A stretch of 64,000 bases of DNA from Actinomycetospora sp. NBRC 106378 (GTDB lineage Bacteria > Actinomycetota > Actinomycetes > Mycobacteriales > Pseudonocardiaceae). Of the stretch, positions 29,036-34,653 are shown piece by piece. The DNA is taken from contig NZ_BSTT01000001.1 in the NCBI RefSeq assembly GCF_030269685.1, forward strand, positions 558,001-622,000, given 5' to 3'. Both the position numbers and the translations under genes were made by a program. Every line of letters begins with the position of its first letter. The first letter of the stretch is position 1. The notes below the pieces were generated by a model. The model was not told the DNA's origin. It did not search any database and saw nothing but the letters and a program-made list of their open reading frames with translations.

Positions 29036-29752
29036 TCAGGCGTCCAGCTTGTAGCCCAGCCCGCGCACCGTCAGCAGGTGCCGCGGCTGCGAGGGCTCCG
29101 GCTCCAGCTTGGCCCGCAGGCGCTTGATGTGGACGTCGAGGGTCTTGGTGTCGCCCACGTAGTCCGCGCCCCACACCCGGTCGATCAGCTGGGCGCGCGT
29201 GAGCACCCGGCCGACGTTGCGCATCAGGTACTCGAGCAGGTCGAACTCCTTGAGCGGCAGCGCGACCTCTCCGGCCACCCCGCCGTTGTCCACCGTCACG
29301 ACGTGGCGGCCGACGTCCATGCGCACCGGGCCGGCCTCCAGGACCTGGCGGTCGGAGCCGCCGGACCCGCCGTCGGGAACGCCCTCGCTGCCCTCGCCGC
29401 GGCGCAGGACCGCGCGGACCCGCGCGATGAGCTCGCGGGCCGAGTACGGCTTGGTGACGTAGTCGTCGGCGCCCAGCTCGAGGCCCACGACCTTGTCGAT
29501 CTCCGCGTCCCGCGCGGTCACCATGATCACCGGCACCGAGGAACGCTGGCGCAGCGCCTTGCACACGTCCGTGCCGCTCATGCCGGGGAGCATCAGGTCG
29601 AGCAGCACGATGTCGGCGCCGTGCCGCTCGAAGTCCTCGAGGGCGGCCGCCCCGGTCCCGGCGACGCTCGCCTCGAAGCCCTCCTTGCGCAGGAGGTAGG
29701 CCAGCGGGTCGGCGAAGGACTCCTCGTCCTCCACGATCAGCACCCTGGTCAT
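29036..29752 (-). CDS. regX3: Response regulator RegX3 (OmpR/PhoB family)
   Basis: A 238-residue regulator. Receiver domain with acidic pocket VEDEE (8-12), phosphoacceptor Asp52 in LLDLMLPG and KPY lysine near 101; winged-helix output (EFDLLEYLMRNVGRVLTR, DVHIKRLRAKLE, VRGLGYKL). It is the partner of SenX3, whose stop overlaps this ATG (ATGA). Controls phosphate-responsive genes in mycobacteria. Confidence 0.94.
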   Translation of the reverse strand: MTRVLIVEDEESFADPLAYLLRKEGFEASVAGTGAAALEDFERHGADIVLLDLMLPGMSGTDVCKALRQRSSVPVIMVTARDAEIDKVVGLELGADDYVTKPYSARELIARVRAVLRRGEGSEGVPDGGSGGSDRQVLEAGPVRMDVGRHVVTVDNGGVAGEVALPLKEFDLLEYLMRNVGRVLTRAQLIDRVWGADYVGDTKTLDVHIKRLRAKLEPEPSQPRHLLTVRGLGYKLDA

Positions 29753-30963
29753 CGGTCACCTCTGGTGGTCGGTTCCAGCACGGGAAGTCCGTTGCGGTGG
29801 TGGTTCTCGTTCCCGACGGCAGGTGGGTCCGGGTCGGGGGGCTCGGGCGGCGGGGCCGGGAGCCGCAGCGTGAAGGTGGAGCCGACGCCGGGTTCGCTCC
29901 ACAGCACCACCTCGCCGCCGTGGTTGGCCGCGACGTGCTTGACGATCGCGAGCCCGAGGCCGGTGCCGCCGGTGGCCCGCGACCGGGCCGGGTCGACGCG
30001 GAAGAACCGCTCGAAGACCCGCTCCTGGTGCTCGGGGGCGATCCCGATCCCGCGGTCGGTCACCGAGATCTCGATCCGGTCCGCGACCGCCCGCCGGCGC
30101 ACCGACACCGTGGAGCCCGGCGAGGAGTAGGCGATCGCGTTCTCCAGCAGGTTCGCGAGCGCCGTGACGAGCAACGTGGAGCTGCCGGCGACCTCGAGTC
30201 CCTGCGGCGCGTCGAGCGTCAGGTCGGTGCCGGCAGCCTCCGCCGAGACCCGCACGCGGGCGACCGCCTCGCGGACCACGTCGTCGACCTCGACCGGGTC
30301 GAGCTCGGGCAGCGGGTCGCCGCCCTGCAGCCGGGAGAGCTCGATGAGCTCGGTGACGAGCGACCCGAGCCGGCGCGACTCGTGGAGGATCTTGCTGGTG
30401 AAGCGGGTGACCTCGGCCGGGTCGTCGGCGTCGAGCGCGGCCTCGGCGAGCACGGCCATCGCGCCGACCGGCGTCTTGAGCTCGTGGCCGACGTTCGCCA
30501 CGAAGTCGCGACGCACGGCCTCGAGCCGCACCGCCGCCGAGGTGTCGGAGGCCTCGACCACCACGAACCCGTCCCCGAGCGGGCCGAGCCGCGCGATCAC
30601 CGACTGCGGGGCCCGCCGCGACGCCACGGGCGGCGACAGGTCGATCTCGGCCGTCCCGCCGTGCTCGGCGATCCGCCCGGCGGCGGCCGCGACCCGGCCG
30701 TCGGGCCGCGCGTCGACGACCGCGCCGAGGACCTCCGCGCGGTCGTTGGAGAGCACCACGTCGCCGAAGCGGTTGATGACCGCCAGGCCGGCGTGCGAGC
30801 GCCGGACGATGCGGGCGAGGAGCTCGGCCACGGTCGGGCCGGCCGCGACGACCGCCGCGCGCTTGCTCCGCGCCTTCCACCGGACCCCGGCGACGCCGAC
30901 GACGACTCCCCCGAGGGCCGCCAGGACGACGGCCAGCACGGTCACGTACGCCGGGACGGCCAC
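29749..30963 (-). CDS. senX3: Sensor histidine kinase SenX3
   Basis: A 404-residue kinase with an N-terminal hydrophobic segment (6-27), a PAS-like region (about 45-145), HisKA with the phosphoacceptor His160 in VGHELKTPVG, and the catalytic domain (NLLENAIAYS, GIGIAPEHQERVFERFFRV, GTGLGLAIVK). The C-terminal ~30 residues are Pro-rich. In mycobacteria it controls RegX3 in response to phosphate via the Pst system. Promoter and PHO-box-like repeats lie upstream. Confidence 0.94.
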   Translation of the reverse strand: MAVPAYVTVLAVVLAALGGVVVGVAGVRWKARSKRAAVVAAGPTVAELLARIVRRSHAGLAVINRFGDVVLSNDRAEVLGAVVDARPDGRVAAAAGRIAEHGGTAEIDLSPPVASRRAPQSVIARLGPLGDGFVVVEASDTSAAVRLEAVRRDFVANVGHELKTPVGAMAVLAEAALDADDPAEVTRFTSKILHESRRLGSLVTELIELSRLQGGDPLPELDPVEVDDVVREAVARVRVSAEAAGTDLTLDAPQGLEVAGSSTLLVTALANLLENAIAYSSPGSTVSVRRRAVADRIEISVTDRGIGIAPEHQERVFERFFRVDPARSRATGGTGLGLAIVKHVAANHGGEVVLWSEPGVGSTFTLRLPAPPPEPPDPDPPAVGNENHHRNGLPVLEPTTRGDR

Positions 30964-31058
30964 GGGCCCGATGGTAGGGCCGTCACCCGGATTTCCACCC
31001 CTGTCGGACCGCCGTTGGTGACCCGTCCAACCCCCGGCAGGGTGACTGTTGGCGACCC

Positions 31059-31080
31059 GTTCAGGTGGTGTTCACCGAGC
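31059..31080. promoter_or_regulatory. PHO-box-like direct repeat upstream of senX3-regX3
   Basis: GTTCA occurs at 31059 and 31070, exactly 11 nt apart, as GTTCAGGTGGT and GTTCACCGAGC, followed by a weaker GCTCA at 31079. This is the spacing of PhoP/RegX3-type direct repeats. It lies 96 nt upstream of the senX3 start and ends at the gpmA stop, so autoregulation by RegX3 is likely. No footprint data; inference. Confidence 0.4.
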
Positions 31081-31845
31081 TCACCGGCCCTGGTTGGCCA
31101 CCGCCGCGATGGCGTCCTCCGCCGCGTCGGGGTCGAGGTAGGTCCCGCCGGGATTCAGCGGACGCAGCTCGGCCGGGTCGTTCCTGTCGGCCTCGAGGTC
31201 GTAGCGCAGCGGGATGCCGGTGGGGATGTTGAGCCCGGCGATCGTCTCGTCGTCGACGCCGTCGAGATGCTTGACGACGGCCCGCAGCGAGTTGCCGTGC
31301 GCGGCGACGAGCACCGTGCGCCCCGCCTTCAGGTCCGGGACGACGGCCTCGGTCCAGTACGGCAGCAGCCGCTCGAGGACGTCCTTCAGGCACTCGGTCC
31401 GCGGCAGGGCGTCGCCGAGGTCGGCGTAGCGCGGGTCGCCCGTCTGGGCGTACTCGTCGTCCGGGTCGATCGGGGGCGGCGGGGTGTCGTAGGAGCGGCG
31501 CCAGATCTGGAACTGCTCCTCGCCGAACTCCTCCATCGTCTGCTTCTTGTCCTTGCCCTGGAGCGCCCCGTAGTGGCGCTCGTTGAGGCGCCAGTCGCGC
31601 CGGACCGGGATCCAGTGCCGGTCGCAGACGTCCAGGGCGATCTGCGCCGTGGCGATCGCCCGGCGCAGCAGTGAGGTGTGCAGCACGTCCGGCAGCAGGC
31701 CGGCCTCGCCGAGGAGCTGGCCGCCCCGGCGGGCCTCCTCCTCCCCGGTCGCGGAGAGCGGCACGTCCACCCAACCCGTGAACAGGTTCTTCTCGTTCCA
31801 CTCGCTCTGCCCGTGCCGCAGCAGCACCAGCGTTCCGACGCTCAT
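31081..31845 (-). CDS. gpmA: 2,3-bisphosphoglycerate-dependent phosphoglycerate mutase
   Basis: A 254-residue glycolytic enzyme that interconverts 3- and 2-phosphoglycerate. The phosphohistidine is His11 in [33 protein letters not shown] and [17 protein letters not shown] follow in family order. It lies next to senX3-regX3, as Rv0489 does in mycobacteria. Confidence 0.95.
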
Positions 31846-31955
31846 GGGCCCGGACCCTAACGGGCGAGGCCGGGTGCGTAGGACGAAACGGCCGGGGGTA
31901 GCCGTGCGCGAACGGACGGCCAGGCCGTCCTCCCCATGATCGAGAAGGAGCAGGG

Positions 31956-32345
31956 ATGAACGACGACGACATCACCACCTCCGGGTCGAACCCCGGCCAC
32001 GGCCCTGCCGACGGCGGCGCCTCGGGTGGGGGCGCCGACGGCGGTGCCGACGGTGGCGCCGACGGCGGTGCCCACGGCCCGGCCGACGGCGGCGCGGCGG
32101 GTAACGGCTCCGACGGCGGTGCCGACGGGGGCGCGGGCCACGGCCCGGCCGACGGCGGTGCGGCCGGTGGCGGCGCGGACGGCGGCGCGGACGGCGGTGC
32201 CGACGGTGGCGCCCACGGCCCGGCCGACGGCGGTGCGTCCGGCAACGGCGCCGACGGCGGTGCGGACGGCTCGGCGGGGCACGGCCCGGCCGACGGCGGT
32301 GCCAGCGGCGGCGGCTCCGACGGTGGGGCCGACGGCGGCGCGTAG
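31956..32345 (+). CDS. Gly/Ala/Asp repeat peptide, candidate modified precursor
   Basis: A 129-residue acidic protein with an AAGGAG ribosome site 6 nt before ATG. Residues 1-14 ([14 protein letters not shown]) precede five units that each begin HGPADGGA: units of 25, 22, 25, 22 and 21 residues, so the pair 25+22 forms a 47-residue higher-order period. Within units GGADGG recurs. There is no Cys, Lys, Arg, aromatic residue or membrane segment, and the only His residues are the five that open the units. I recognise it only as resembling the Gly/Asp-rich proteins often labelled BatC in actinobacteria. It sits upstream of a JmjC oxygenase and a [2Fe-2S] protein, which suggests it is their substrate. 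Confidence 0.8.
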
Positions 32346-32353
32346 GTGCTTCG

Positions 32354-32399
32354 CAGGTGAGCACTAATCCGTGCCAGAACACGGACTAGTGCTCACCTG
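32354..32399. terminator. 20-nt-arm hairpin between repeat peptide and oxygenase
   Basis: CAGGTGAGCACTAATCCGTG (32354-32373) pairs with CACGGACTAGTGCTCACCTG (32380-32399) with one mismatch and loop CCAGAA. It starts 9 nt after the peptide stop and ends 23 nt before the oxygenase GTG. Lacking a T-run, it may act as a partial terminator, giving more precursor than enzyme transcript. Its outer stem is shared with the hairpin at 43701. Confidence 0.6.
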
Positions 32400-32422
32400 G
32401 CGCAGCCACATTGGAGGACACC

Positions 32423-33715
32423 GTGACCGACCGCCCGTTCCTGCGCCGCTGCGTGGCCGGCGACCTCGACACCTTCGCCGACGAGGCGTGGGGCCGGCAG
32501 GCCGTCCTCTCGCGCGCCGACGACCTCGCCAAGGACGGCGATACCGACGCCGCCTCCGGCTACGGGGACCTCTTCTCCCTCGACGCCGTGGACGACCTGC
32601 TCGCCCGCCGCGGCCTGCGCACGCCCTTCCTGCGCGTCGCGAAGCAGGGCACGGTCGTCGACTCGAAGCACTTCACCGGCGACGGCGGCGTCGGCGCCGA
32701 GGTCACCGACCAGGTCCGCGACGACCGGATCGCCGGCCTGTTCGCCGACGGCCACACCGTGGTGCTGCAGGGCGTGCACCGCACGTGGGACCCGGTGGCC
32801 CGCCTCGCGACCGGCCTGAACGCCGACCTCGGGCACCCGGTGCAGGTCAACGCCTACATCACCCCGCCGTCCTCGACGGGGTTCTCCGCGCACTACGACG
32901 TGCACGACGTCTTCGTCCTGCAGATCGCGGGCACCAAGCGCTGGCACGTCCACGCGCCGGTCCACCCCGACCCCCTGCGCAACCAGCCGTGGAACGACCA
33001 CGCGGCCGCCGTCCGCGAGCAGGCCGCCGGCGAGCCGCTGCTCGACGAGGTGCTCCAGCCCGGCGACGCGCTGTACCTGCCGCGCGGCTTCCTGCACTCG
33101 GCCACCGCCCAGGGCGAGATCTCGGCCCACCTGACGGTCGGCATCCACGTCCTCACCCGCCATGCCGTGCTCGAGACGCTCCTCGCGGGCCTGGCCGACG
33201 ACCCCGAGCTGCGCGCGTCGCTGCCGCTCGGCGTCGACGTCGCCGACCCCGCCTCGCTCGCGCCGCACGTCGAGGCGGTCGCCCGGAGGGCCGCCGAGTA
33301 CTTCGGGCGCCCCCTCGACGCCGACCGGACCTCGCGGCGGCTGCGCGGCCGCGTCTGGAACGGCAACCGCCCCGAGTCCCTGCTCCCGCTGCGCCAGGCT
33401 GCGGCCATCGCCGCGCTCGACGCCGACACCGTGGTGCAGCCGCGTCTCGGCCTGCGGCACCGGGTCCTTCCGGACGCCGGGTCGGGGAAGATCACCCTCG
33501 ACCTCCCCGACCGCTCGCTGGAGCTGCCGGCCGCGGCCGCGACGCCGTTGACGACGCTGCTCGCGGGCGGGCCCGTGCGGATCGGGGACGTCGGAGAGGA
33601 CGAGGCCGGCGACGCGATCGTGGTCGCCCGCCGGCTGATGAAGGAAGGTGTCCTGGTGACGCCCGATGCGGTCACTGGCGCCGATCACCGCGATGGAGGT
33701 ACGACGGACACGTGA
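32423..33715 (+). CDS. JmjC/cupin-4 Fe(II)- and 2-oxoglutarate-dependent oxygenase
   Basis: A 430-residue protein. A JmjC domain (about 85-245) holds the iron triad His157, Asp159 (HYDVHDVF) and His225 (GFLHSA) with GTKRWHV near 170; a helical dimerisation part and a winged-helix-like C-terminus follow, as in the NO66/MINA53/YcfD ribosomal oxygenases. Those enzymes hydroxylate His or Arg in proteins. Here the gene follows the His-repeat peptide, so protein hydroxylation of that peptide is the leading hypothesis; uL2/uL16 ribosomal hydroxylation is the alternative. GGAGG precedes GTG 32423 at 5 nt. Confidence 0.88.
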   Translation: MTDRPFLRRCVAGDLDTFADEAWGRQAVLSRADDLAKDGDTDAASGYGDLFSLDAVDDLLARRGLRTPFLRVAKQGTVVDSKHFTGDGGVGAEVTDQVRDDRIAGLFADGHTVVLQGVHRTWDPVARLATGLNADLGHPVQVNAYITPPSSTGFSAHYDVHDVFVLQIAGTKRWHVHAPVHPDPLRNQPWNDHAAAVREQAAGEPLLDEVLQPGDALYLPRGFLHSATAQGEISAHLTVGIHVLTRHAVLETLLAGLADDPELRASLPLGVDVADPASLAPHVEAVARRAAEYFGRPLDADRTSRRLRGRVWNGNRPESLLPLRQAAAIAALDADTVVQPRLGLRHRVLPDAGSGKITLDLPDRSLELPAAAATPLTTLLAGGPVRIGDVGEDEAGDAIVVARRLMKEGVLVTPDAVTGADHRDGGTTDT

Positions 33716-34653
33716 CGGCGGAATCACTGACCCGGCAGGACCCGGCGGACGACCCCACGCAGTTCCGCTGTTCGGCCGCCGCCCGCGAACGGGACGATCC
33801 GCTGTTCGCCTCCGCCCCGCCGGCCCGGCGCTGGCTGCTGGTGGAGCACCCCGGTCCGTGGGGGTTCCAGGCGCTGGCCGGGGCCGGGTTCTCCGACCCG
33901 GTCGTCGAGGCGATCGACGCGTTCTGCCGCAGCCACGAGGCGCGCTTCCAGCTCATCCGCCGCACCGCGGCACGCGGGATGCCCACCGAGGCCGGCGGTC
34001 GGTTCGCGCTCGTCGACTCCCGCATCGGACACGAGTCGGTGCGCTGGGGACGGGTCGACTCGCCCGAGGCGCTGCCGGCGGCACTGGCCGACGTGGAGGC
34101 GTCCACCGAGCCGTCGGACGAGCCGGTGTACCTCGTGTGCGCCCACGGCCGGCACGACGCCTGCTGCGCGATGCGCGGGCGCCCGGTCGCGGCCGTGCTG
34201 GCGACGGAGTTCGCCGACCGGACCTGGGAGACCACGCACACCGGGGGCGACCGCTTCGCGGCCAACGTCGTGCTGCTGCCGCACGGCCTCGTGCTGGGAC
34301 GGGTGCCCGCCACCGAGGCGGTGCGCGTCGCCGAGCGCTACGACGCGGGCGAGGTCGACCCGACCCTCGTGCGCGGTCGCGCCGGGCTCGCGCCGTCGGT
34401 GCAGGGCGCCCAGCACCATGCCCGCCTCGCCCTCGGCGAGCACCGCGTGACGGCGCTCGCGCCGGTGGCGGTCACGCCCGACCCGACCGAACCCGCCGTC
34501 GTGACCGTCCGTCTGGCGTCCGAGGACGGCCCGCTCGACGTCACCGTTCGGGAGCGGTGGATCCCGTCGGCGACGCCGCTGACGTGCAGCGCCGGACGGA
34601 CCGCCTCGATGCGGACCTACGACCTGGTGTCGCTGACCCCGACGCGGCCGTAG
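33712..34653 (+). CDS. Sucrase/ferredoxin-like thioredoxin-fold [2Fe-2S] protein
   Basis: A 313-residue member of the Suc_Fer-like family. Cluster-type cysteines are C20 (FRCS), C143, C151 and C152 (CAHGRHDACCAMRG); HTGGDRFAANVV (176-187) is the other hallmark block. Such proteins are presumed electron carriers. GTGA overlap with the oxygenase shows tight coupling, and GGAGG lies before the GTG. It could recycle ferrous iron in the oxygenase; that is inference. Its 3' end overlaps the convergent acyltransferase by 37 nt. Confidence 0.85.
   Translation: MTAESLTRQDPADDPTQFRCSAAARERDDPLFASAPPARRWLLVEHPGPWGFQALAGAGFSDPVVEAIDAFCRSHEARFQLIRRTAARGMPTEAGGRFALVDSRIGHESVRWGRVDSPEALPAALADVEASTEPSDEPVYLVCAHGRHDACCAMRGRPVAAVLATEFADRTWETTHTGGDRFAANVVLLPHGLVLGRVPATEAVRVAERYDAGEVDPTLVRGRAGLAPSVQGAQHHARLALGEHRVTALAPVAVTPDPTEPAVVTVRLASEDGPLDVTVRERWIPSATPLTCSAGRTASMRTYDLVSLTPTRP

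Follow-up and report, generated by a model that had tools for sequence, protein, structure and literature searches.

Here we describe a three-gene unit of Actinomycetospora sp. NBRC 106378 that lies in a 64,000-nucleotide stretch of contig NZ_BSTT01000001.1 (the window, whose first letter is position 1). Genes A, B and C are co-oriented on the + strand within positions 31956-34653 and encode an Asp-rich repeat peptide, a JmjC-type oxygenase and a Suc_Fer-like protein (Table 1). A preliminary description of this DNA had reported three co-oriented genes, the first built of five HGPADGGA units spaced by 25/22/25/22/21 residues. The sequence of gene A agrees: the units start at nucleotides 31998, 32073, 32139, 32214 and 32280, corresponding to residues 15, 40, 62, 87 and 109. 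The composition of the peptide (G55 A27 D20 S8 P6 H5 N4 T2 M1 I1) likewise bears out a single His per unit and zero Cys, Lys, Arg or aromatic residues.

Table 1. Features of the unit, with positions counted in the window
Feature	Position	Strand	Basis or remark
AAGGAG ribosome-binding-like site	31945..31950	+	sequence; 5 nt 5' of the gene A ATG
Gene A, candidate precursor, 129-aa Asp-rich repeat peptide	31956..32345	+	ATG to TAG; relatives in other genomes
Leader-like N-terminus of gene A, 14 residues	31956..31997	+	acidic D-x-D-[IMTV]-like motif
Gene A core, five HGPADGGA units with DGGADGG stretches in between	31998..32342	+	sequence
19-bp hairpin between genes A and B	32355..32398	+	fold z-score; covariation in 5 Actinomycetospora
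Gene B, JmjC_2 Fe(II)/2-oxoglutarate (2OG) oxygenase, 430 aa, NO66/MINA53 architecture	32423..33715	+	GTG start; alternative TTG at 32411
H157-Y-D159, predicted iron ligands one and two	32891..32899	+	homology
H225, predicted iron ligand three	33095..33097	+	homology
Gene B C-terminal winged-helix domain, residues 318-420	33374..33682	+	like a RiPP recognition element (RRE) by fold; model pLDDT 87.7
Gene C, Suc_Fer-like (PF06999) [2Fe-2S]-family protein, 313 aa	33712..34653	+	GTG start; Pfam

Genes of the unit

The gene A product matched no Pfam family at E 0.1, and a search of NCBIfam at E 1 gave nothing for any of the three products. A second copy of gene A in the same genome was represented by a weak match alone (E 0.03), and genes B and C gave one match each. 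The five units of gene A occur in four DNA versions whose differences are confined to third codon positions. The residues encoded leave no freedom at positions one and two, so the pattern shows no more than that the repeats were not copied recently.

Gene B matched the Pfam family JmjC_2 (PF08007, E 8e-28), and its best solved relatives by sequence were NO66, followed by MINA53 (PDB 4ccm and 4bxf; 22-28% identity). This supports the NO66/MINA53-type assignment made at the outset, and the architecture, a JmjC domain, a middle helical region and a winged helix, is that of the ribosomal oxygenases NO66, MINA53 and RoxA. The HxD...H triad, which the preliminary description had called complete, is present and was kept among 52 aligned relatives (H157 in 52, D159 in 51 and H225 in 52). 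These features are those expected of an Fe(II)/2OG JmjC oxygenase with an intact predicted active site. In one relative (L088), Val replaces the iron-ligand Asp found in the 51 others; this oxygenase may be an inactive copy or a sequencing error. The C-terminal winged helix resembles recognition elements of ribosomally synthesized and post-translationally modified peptides (RiPPs) by fold comparison alone: a profile comparison with PqqD failed, giving a probability of 0.4% as against 0.1-3.4% in five control pairs.

The start codon of gene C, GTG at 33712, and the stop codon TGA of gene B overlap as GTGA, and the gene C product matched PF06999 with E 7e-17 (62.5 bits, compared with a Pfam gathering cut-off of 34.9), in line with the GTGA overlap and the [2Fe-2S]-type partner proposed earlier. 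Residues C20, C143, H148, C151, C152, H176 and C292 are conserved in 96-99% of the 160 relatives aligned. The closest known proteins are the Suc_Fer-like, Apd1-type [2Fe-2S] proteins; gene C shares the Pfam match and the Cys/His set with them and differs in its link to a JmjC enzyme.

Two features absent from the preliminary description are the leader-like start of gene A and the hairpin that follows this gene. The hairpin stretch had a z-score of -5.6. Across five Actinomycetospora, compensatory changes were seen at 7 of the 19 pairs, 92.6% of cells were paired, and the covariation score was reached by none of 500 shuffles. The hairpin carries no T run and is therefore not a textbook terminator. 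Other long stems stand in the same place at L007, L008, L030, L033 and L089; by z-score, other loci have none.

Distribution of the peptide-oxygenase pair

Gene B was found in 17 of 18 Actinomycetospora genomes, the genome without it being 83% complete, and matches, distant JmjC relatives included, occurred in 71 of 150 genomes of the family, 124 of 200 of the order and 43 of 296 of the phylum. Loci were taken at the best-matching places (17 for the genus, 30 each for family, order and phylum, and 80 for named genomes, the last being the best 80 of 556 relatives), and another 40 regions were hand-picked to span families. These samples overlap: named-genome loci share genomes with the other sets, and four phylum loci repeat earlier ones. 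Adjacency was scored by script at loci 34% to 100% identical in gene B with at least 300 nt upstream, the detector calling an Asp-repeat open reading frame (ORF) that ends just before gene B and requiring an Asp-rich C-terminus.

An Asp-repeat ORF was directly upstream of gene B at 16/16 loci of the genus, 20/20 of the family, 22/22 and 26/27 in two order groups, 28/28 of the phylum and 72/74 in named genomes. By eye, L112, in the phylum set, proved false, and L083, L151 and L146 were real pairs missed by the script. Among other ORFs, the detector fired on 1 of 376 in the window and on 40 of 7645 in the loci (0.5%); with this background, we rejected the idea that GC-rich sequence had produced the repeat ORF by chance. 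These data confirm that the pairing exceeds chance and recurs across Actinomycetota, as the proposal in the preliminary description requires of repeat protein and oxygenase in other genomes. Named carriers include Pseudonocardia, Saccharopolyspora, Amycolatopsis, Actinokineospora, Kribbella, Geodermatophilus, Blastococcus, Modestobacter, Cellulomonas, Leifsonia, Agromyces, Dietzia, Rhodococcoides, Micromonospora and Paractinoplanes. A viral or a mobile origin gained no support: 47 viral_contigs stretches matched a pattern and none encoded a relative, and the 136 plasmid records with a JmjC homologue were all below 60% identity, the ten listed being at 30-35%.

A further question raised at the outset was whether either partner occurs without the other. 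In the family, a query with the precursor matched 21 of 150 genomes. These are precisely the non-genus genomes with a gene B at least 53% identical, 21 in all, and the match adjoined that gene B in 20 of them. In G090, the precursor adjoins a second JmjC match, partial and on a different contig; G133 has one more weak match (E 9.9e-4) elsewhere. The order query found the precursor in 42 of 200 genomes, each of them among the 124 with a gene B match. No genome with the precursor alone was seen among the 150 family and 200 order genomes, both queries being insensitive: the former missed six genus genomes whose peptide has a core of another subtype, and the latter found 42 genomes against 124 with a JmjC match. 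The reverse case does exist, in distant clades and at L112 (G468). The latter has a close JmjC orthologue (48%), no recognisable repeat peptide and no adjacent Suc_Fer gene, a Suc_Fer homologue lying elsewhere in the genome.

Gene C, counted at loci with at least 1 kb downstream in the same six groups, was adjacent in 17/17, 20/21, 23/23, 18/25, 23/28 and 68/78 cases, and in 2/3 and 6/13 at distant JmjC groups. Ten genomes without an adjacent gene C were searched as a whole with one protein (E 0.001), and a homologue was present elsewhere in two of them; by the same search, the five f15 genomes had none anywhere. In the oxygenase tree, f15 groups with Virgisporangium (Micromonosporaceae), and the Micromonosporaceae loci L184, L185, L191, L196, L205 and L213 also have no adjacent gene C. 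Gene C goes along with most lineages and yet, because of the branches that have none, is dispensable.

Distant JmjC relatives had a detected precursor at 4 of 13 fetched loci and at 2 of 3 in the family. Those with none detected were L040, L090-L094 and L099-L102, several of which are flanked by other short peptides or RiPP-type genes. At L099 the JmjC gene adjoins Lant_dehydr_C. At L091, in an f15 genome, it lies near a Lant_dehydr_N-like gene (below the Pfam cut-off) and a peptide ending in CSCSATCSCCPSSSS, a stretch rich in Cys and Ser of the kind seen in thiopeptide clusters. At L040 it adjoins a nitroreductase-family gene and a major facilitator superfamily transporter. These neighbours support the idea that members of the wider JmjC clade may act on ribosomal peptides. 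At L093, the distant JmjC gene is preceded by a peptide that ends in two copies of VIADNDPSDPVL. At L100 and L101, a Suc_Fer motif lies downstream of short peptides that end in ADNDGND(G). These are possible further precursor types.

The 4-kb flanks of the 80 named and 6 other loci were screened for recurring ORFs of at least 100 aa. This screen was insensitive, recovering the JmjC gene at 57 and the Suc_Fer gene at 33 of the 86 loci; within that limit, genes B and C and an antisense frame over B recurred broadly and nothing else, with no protease, exporter or transporter, regulator, second oxygenase or ligase among the broadly recurring frames. Upstream of the unit in the window, histidine kinase and histidine-phosphatase-family genes (Pfam) occupy 29749-31845 on the - strand. 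Such frames recur at Actinomycetospora loci and not broadly, which places them outside the unit.

Leader, core and candidate target residue

Among 166 distinct precursors, the N-terminus had the consensus L-[DN]-D-D-D-[IM]-T-[TS], and a D-x-D-[IMTV]-like motif was present in 153 by a loose pattern and in 145 by a stricter one. The 13 rows failing the loose pattern comprised six mis-segmented by the script's choice of start (L058, L061, L096, L117, L157 and L198), six truly without the motif (L078, L089, L108, L110, L167 and L181) and the false row L112; L208 also has no true motif, though it passes the loose pattern. The cores are of DGGA type in 135 rows, which contain DGGAD, and otherwise in the remaining 31, mostly DxD such as DADGTDADG, L112 being a false row. 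In the midpoint-rooted oxygenase tree, the enzymes of DGGA-type precursors formed one group (100/99, with L112) and those of the DxD type two separate groups. The unit has a short candidate precursor encoded next to its presumed modifying enzyme, as in RiPP systems, and the precursors have the conserved leader and variable core by which RiPPs are also recognized.

Seven Kribbella-type precursors (L144, L146, L147, L149, L151, L187 and L204) end in NSGSW or SSGSW, their C-terminal Trp standing in otherwise aromatic-poor peptides. At L146, a repetitive stretch of about 0.46 kb lies between the stop codon of the precursor and the part of the oxygenase that was matched; it is perhaps an N-terminal repeat extension of the enzyme.

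The Asp preceding GGA was kept in 831 of 859 units. A detector that demands Asp-rich ends in part guarantees that Asp is found in every core, and Gly and Ala are equally widespread; on chemical grounds, Asp would be the best candidate for the modification site.

Interpretation and relation to known systems

The conserved association of the two genes, the leader and core pattern and the predicted active site suggest that the oxygenase very probably modifies the neighbouring Asp-repeat peptide. We consider it likely, with some reserve, that the unit is RiPP-like and that its JmjC enzyme oxidizes core Asp residues, by hydroxylation or in another way. Gene A would supply a precursor composed of a short acidic leader (L-D/N-D-D-D-I/M-T-T/S) and a repeat core. 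Gene B would recognize it, possibly through its RRE-like winged helix, and would oxidize the repeated core side chains successively, the likeliest product being beta-hydroxyaspartate at the Asp of D-G-G and A-D-G motifs. Gene C would probably keep the oxygenase reduced or supply it with iron, or else catalyse a later redox step on the peptide. The hairpin after gene A fits a higher output of peptide than of enzyme and, in the lineages that have one, would permit such an excess.

The preliminary description had named either the repeated His or the Asp of DGG as the target. Hydroxylation of His, as carried out by NO66 and MINA53 on ribosomal proteins, would suit the histidyl hydroxylases that are the closest solved relatives by fold, as well as the window units with one His each at the same place, and His stands ahead of 201 of 979 DGGAD stretches. 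Against it, 43 of 166 distinct cores, including most of the large Asp-Thr-Gly-Ser core branch, have no His, and the residue preceding G[PTLVAS]A in 462 units was Glu in 241, His in 126 and Gly in 64. The cores without His led us to set His aside as the conserved target; since JmjC enzymes can shift from one target residue to another, His is conceivable in Actinomycetospora, and we regard this reading as unlikely overall. Another oxidation of Asp has a small but appreciable chance of being correct, be it dehydrogenation, oxidative decarboxylation or cleavage of the aminomalonate type, or cross-linking; gene C might then act as the redox partner. RiPP iron oxygenases do go beyond hydroxylation, according to PMC13097080 and PMC13060819, and the third gene here often encodes a protein of a redox family; set against this are the branches without gene C and a flank screen in which, at its low sensitivity, no second oxygenase or ligase recurred.

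Two further readings would take the unit out of peptide biosynthesis. JmjC-type Fe(II)/2OG enzymes respond to Fe, O2 and 2OG, so that the unit might sense oxygen, iron or 2OG, with a peptide that binds a partner or metal and whose hydroxylation state is the read-out. The acidic, low-complexity peptide would fit, as would flanks in which the insensitive screen saw no recurrent exporter or protease; the same screen, however, saw no recurrent regulator gene, and a leader followed by cores differing widely in length and sequence is typical of modified products, which makes a sensor quite improbable. It is a shade less probable still that gene B is a ribosomal oxygenase acting on uL2, uL15 or uL16, with the acidic repeat protein as an unrelated neighbour or regulator. 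This would be at odds with the near-total adjacency and co-occurrence of gene B with the peptide and with a patchy spread (43 of 296 phylum genomes, distant matches included) unlike that of a core ribosome modifier. As to whether the enzyme groups with ribosomal oxygenases, as the preliminary description had wished to see, E. coli RoxA is extremely distant in a tree that comprises it, on a long branch, without NO66 and MINA53.

The reading we prefer, oxidation of core Asp by a JmjC enzyme, can be set beside known systems. JmjC oxygenases have been studied mostly as histone demethylases and ribosomal hydroxylases. Among the closest known systems are E. coli RoxA (YcfD), an L16 arginine hydroxylase, and the histidyl hydroxylases NO66 and MINA53, from which gene B differs in being bacterial and in lying beside an Asp-repeat peptide gene, with no ribosomal context seen. 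A JmjC-related enzyme acting on a ribosomal peptide is not without precedent: in biphenomycin-like pathways, a ribosomal precursor is the substrate of one JmjC/cupin hydroxylase, PbsQ, and the predicted substrate of another, BpmG (PMC12257519). As described there, those enzymes target ornithine within a pathway of multinuclear non-heme iron-dependent oxidative (MNIO) and radical S-adenosylmethionine enzymes with a protease, whereas the present unit has Asp-rich repeats and only JmjC and Suc_Fer proteins. Fish and algae have PF08007 fused to an RRE-like bbb-aaa domain, and bacterial homologues (~30% identity) have been placed in RiPP-like contexts (PMC12710340, section 6); that section, in contrast to the unit here, names no precursor, repeat peptide or Suc_Fer partner. 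In a graspetide cluster, SmaO and SmaX take Asp through beta-hydroxyaspartate to aminomalonate (as described in PMC13097080). They resemble the proposed unit as oxygenases that beta-hydroxylate and further convert Asp of a ribosomal peptide, and differ from it in the graspetide setting, in being two oxygenases and in modifying the peptide N-terminus. Hydroxylation of Asp by an MNIO enzyme gates nitrile formation (PMC13060819).

The literature searched, also by core strings, gave no description of the unit, in keeping with the earlier statement that none was known; coverage of subscription papers was partial, and a description elsewhere is possible. The unit is real, widespread and apparently undescribed. 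As a guess, its product is an intracellular peptide that binds metal (Fe or Ca). A broader proposal, which we advance tentatively and with more doubt than confidence, is that Actinomycetota make poly-beta-hydroxyaspartyl repeat peptides by means of a stand-alone JmjC enzyme that brings an RRE-like leader-binding domain of its own, and that these peptides serve intracellularly, in a conserved role, for metal handling or as redox-linked material, not as antibiotics; such peptides would form a phylum-wide undescribed class.

With this unit, nature provides a very large collection of oxygenases encoded next to their substrates, which carry many repeats of a simple motif, so that specificity, processivity and leader recognition become directly testable. 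If Asp is hydroxylated, common actinobacteria would make multiply hydroxyaspartyl peptides with a natural metal-binding chemistry. The unit may also connect RiPP recognition elements with the winged helix found in enzymes of the NO66/MINA53 type.

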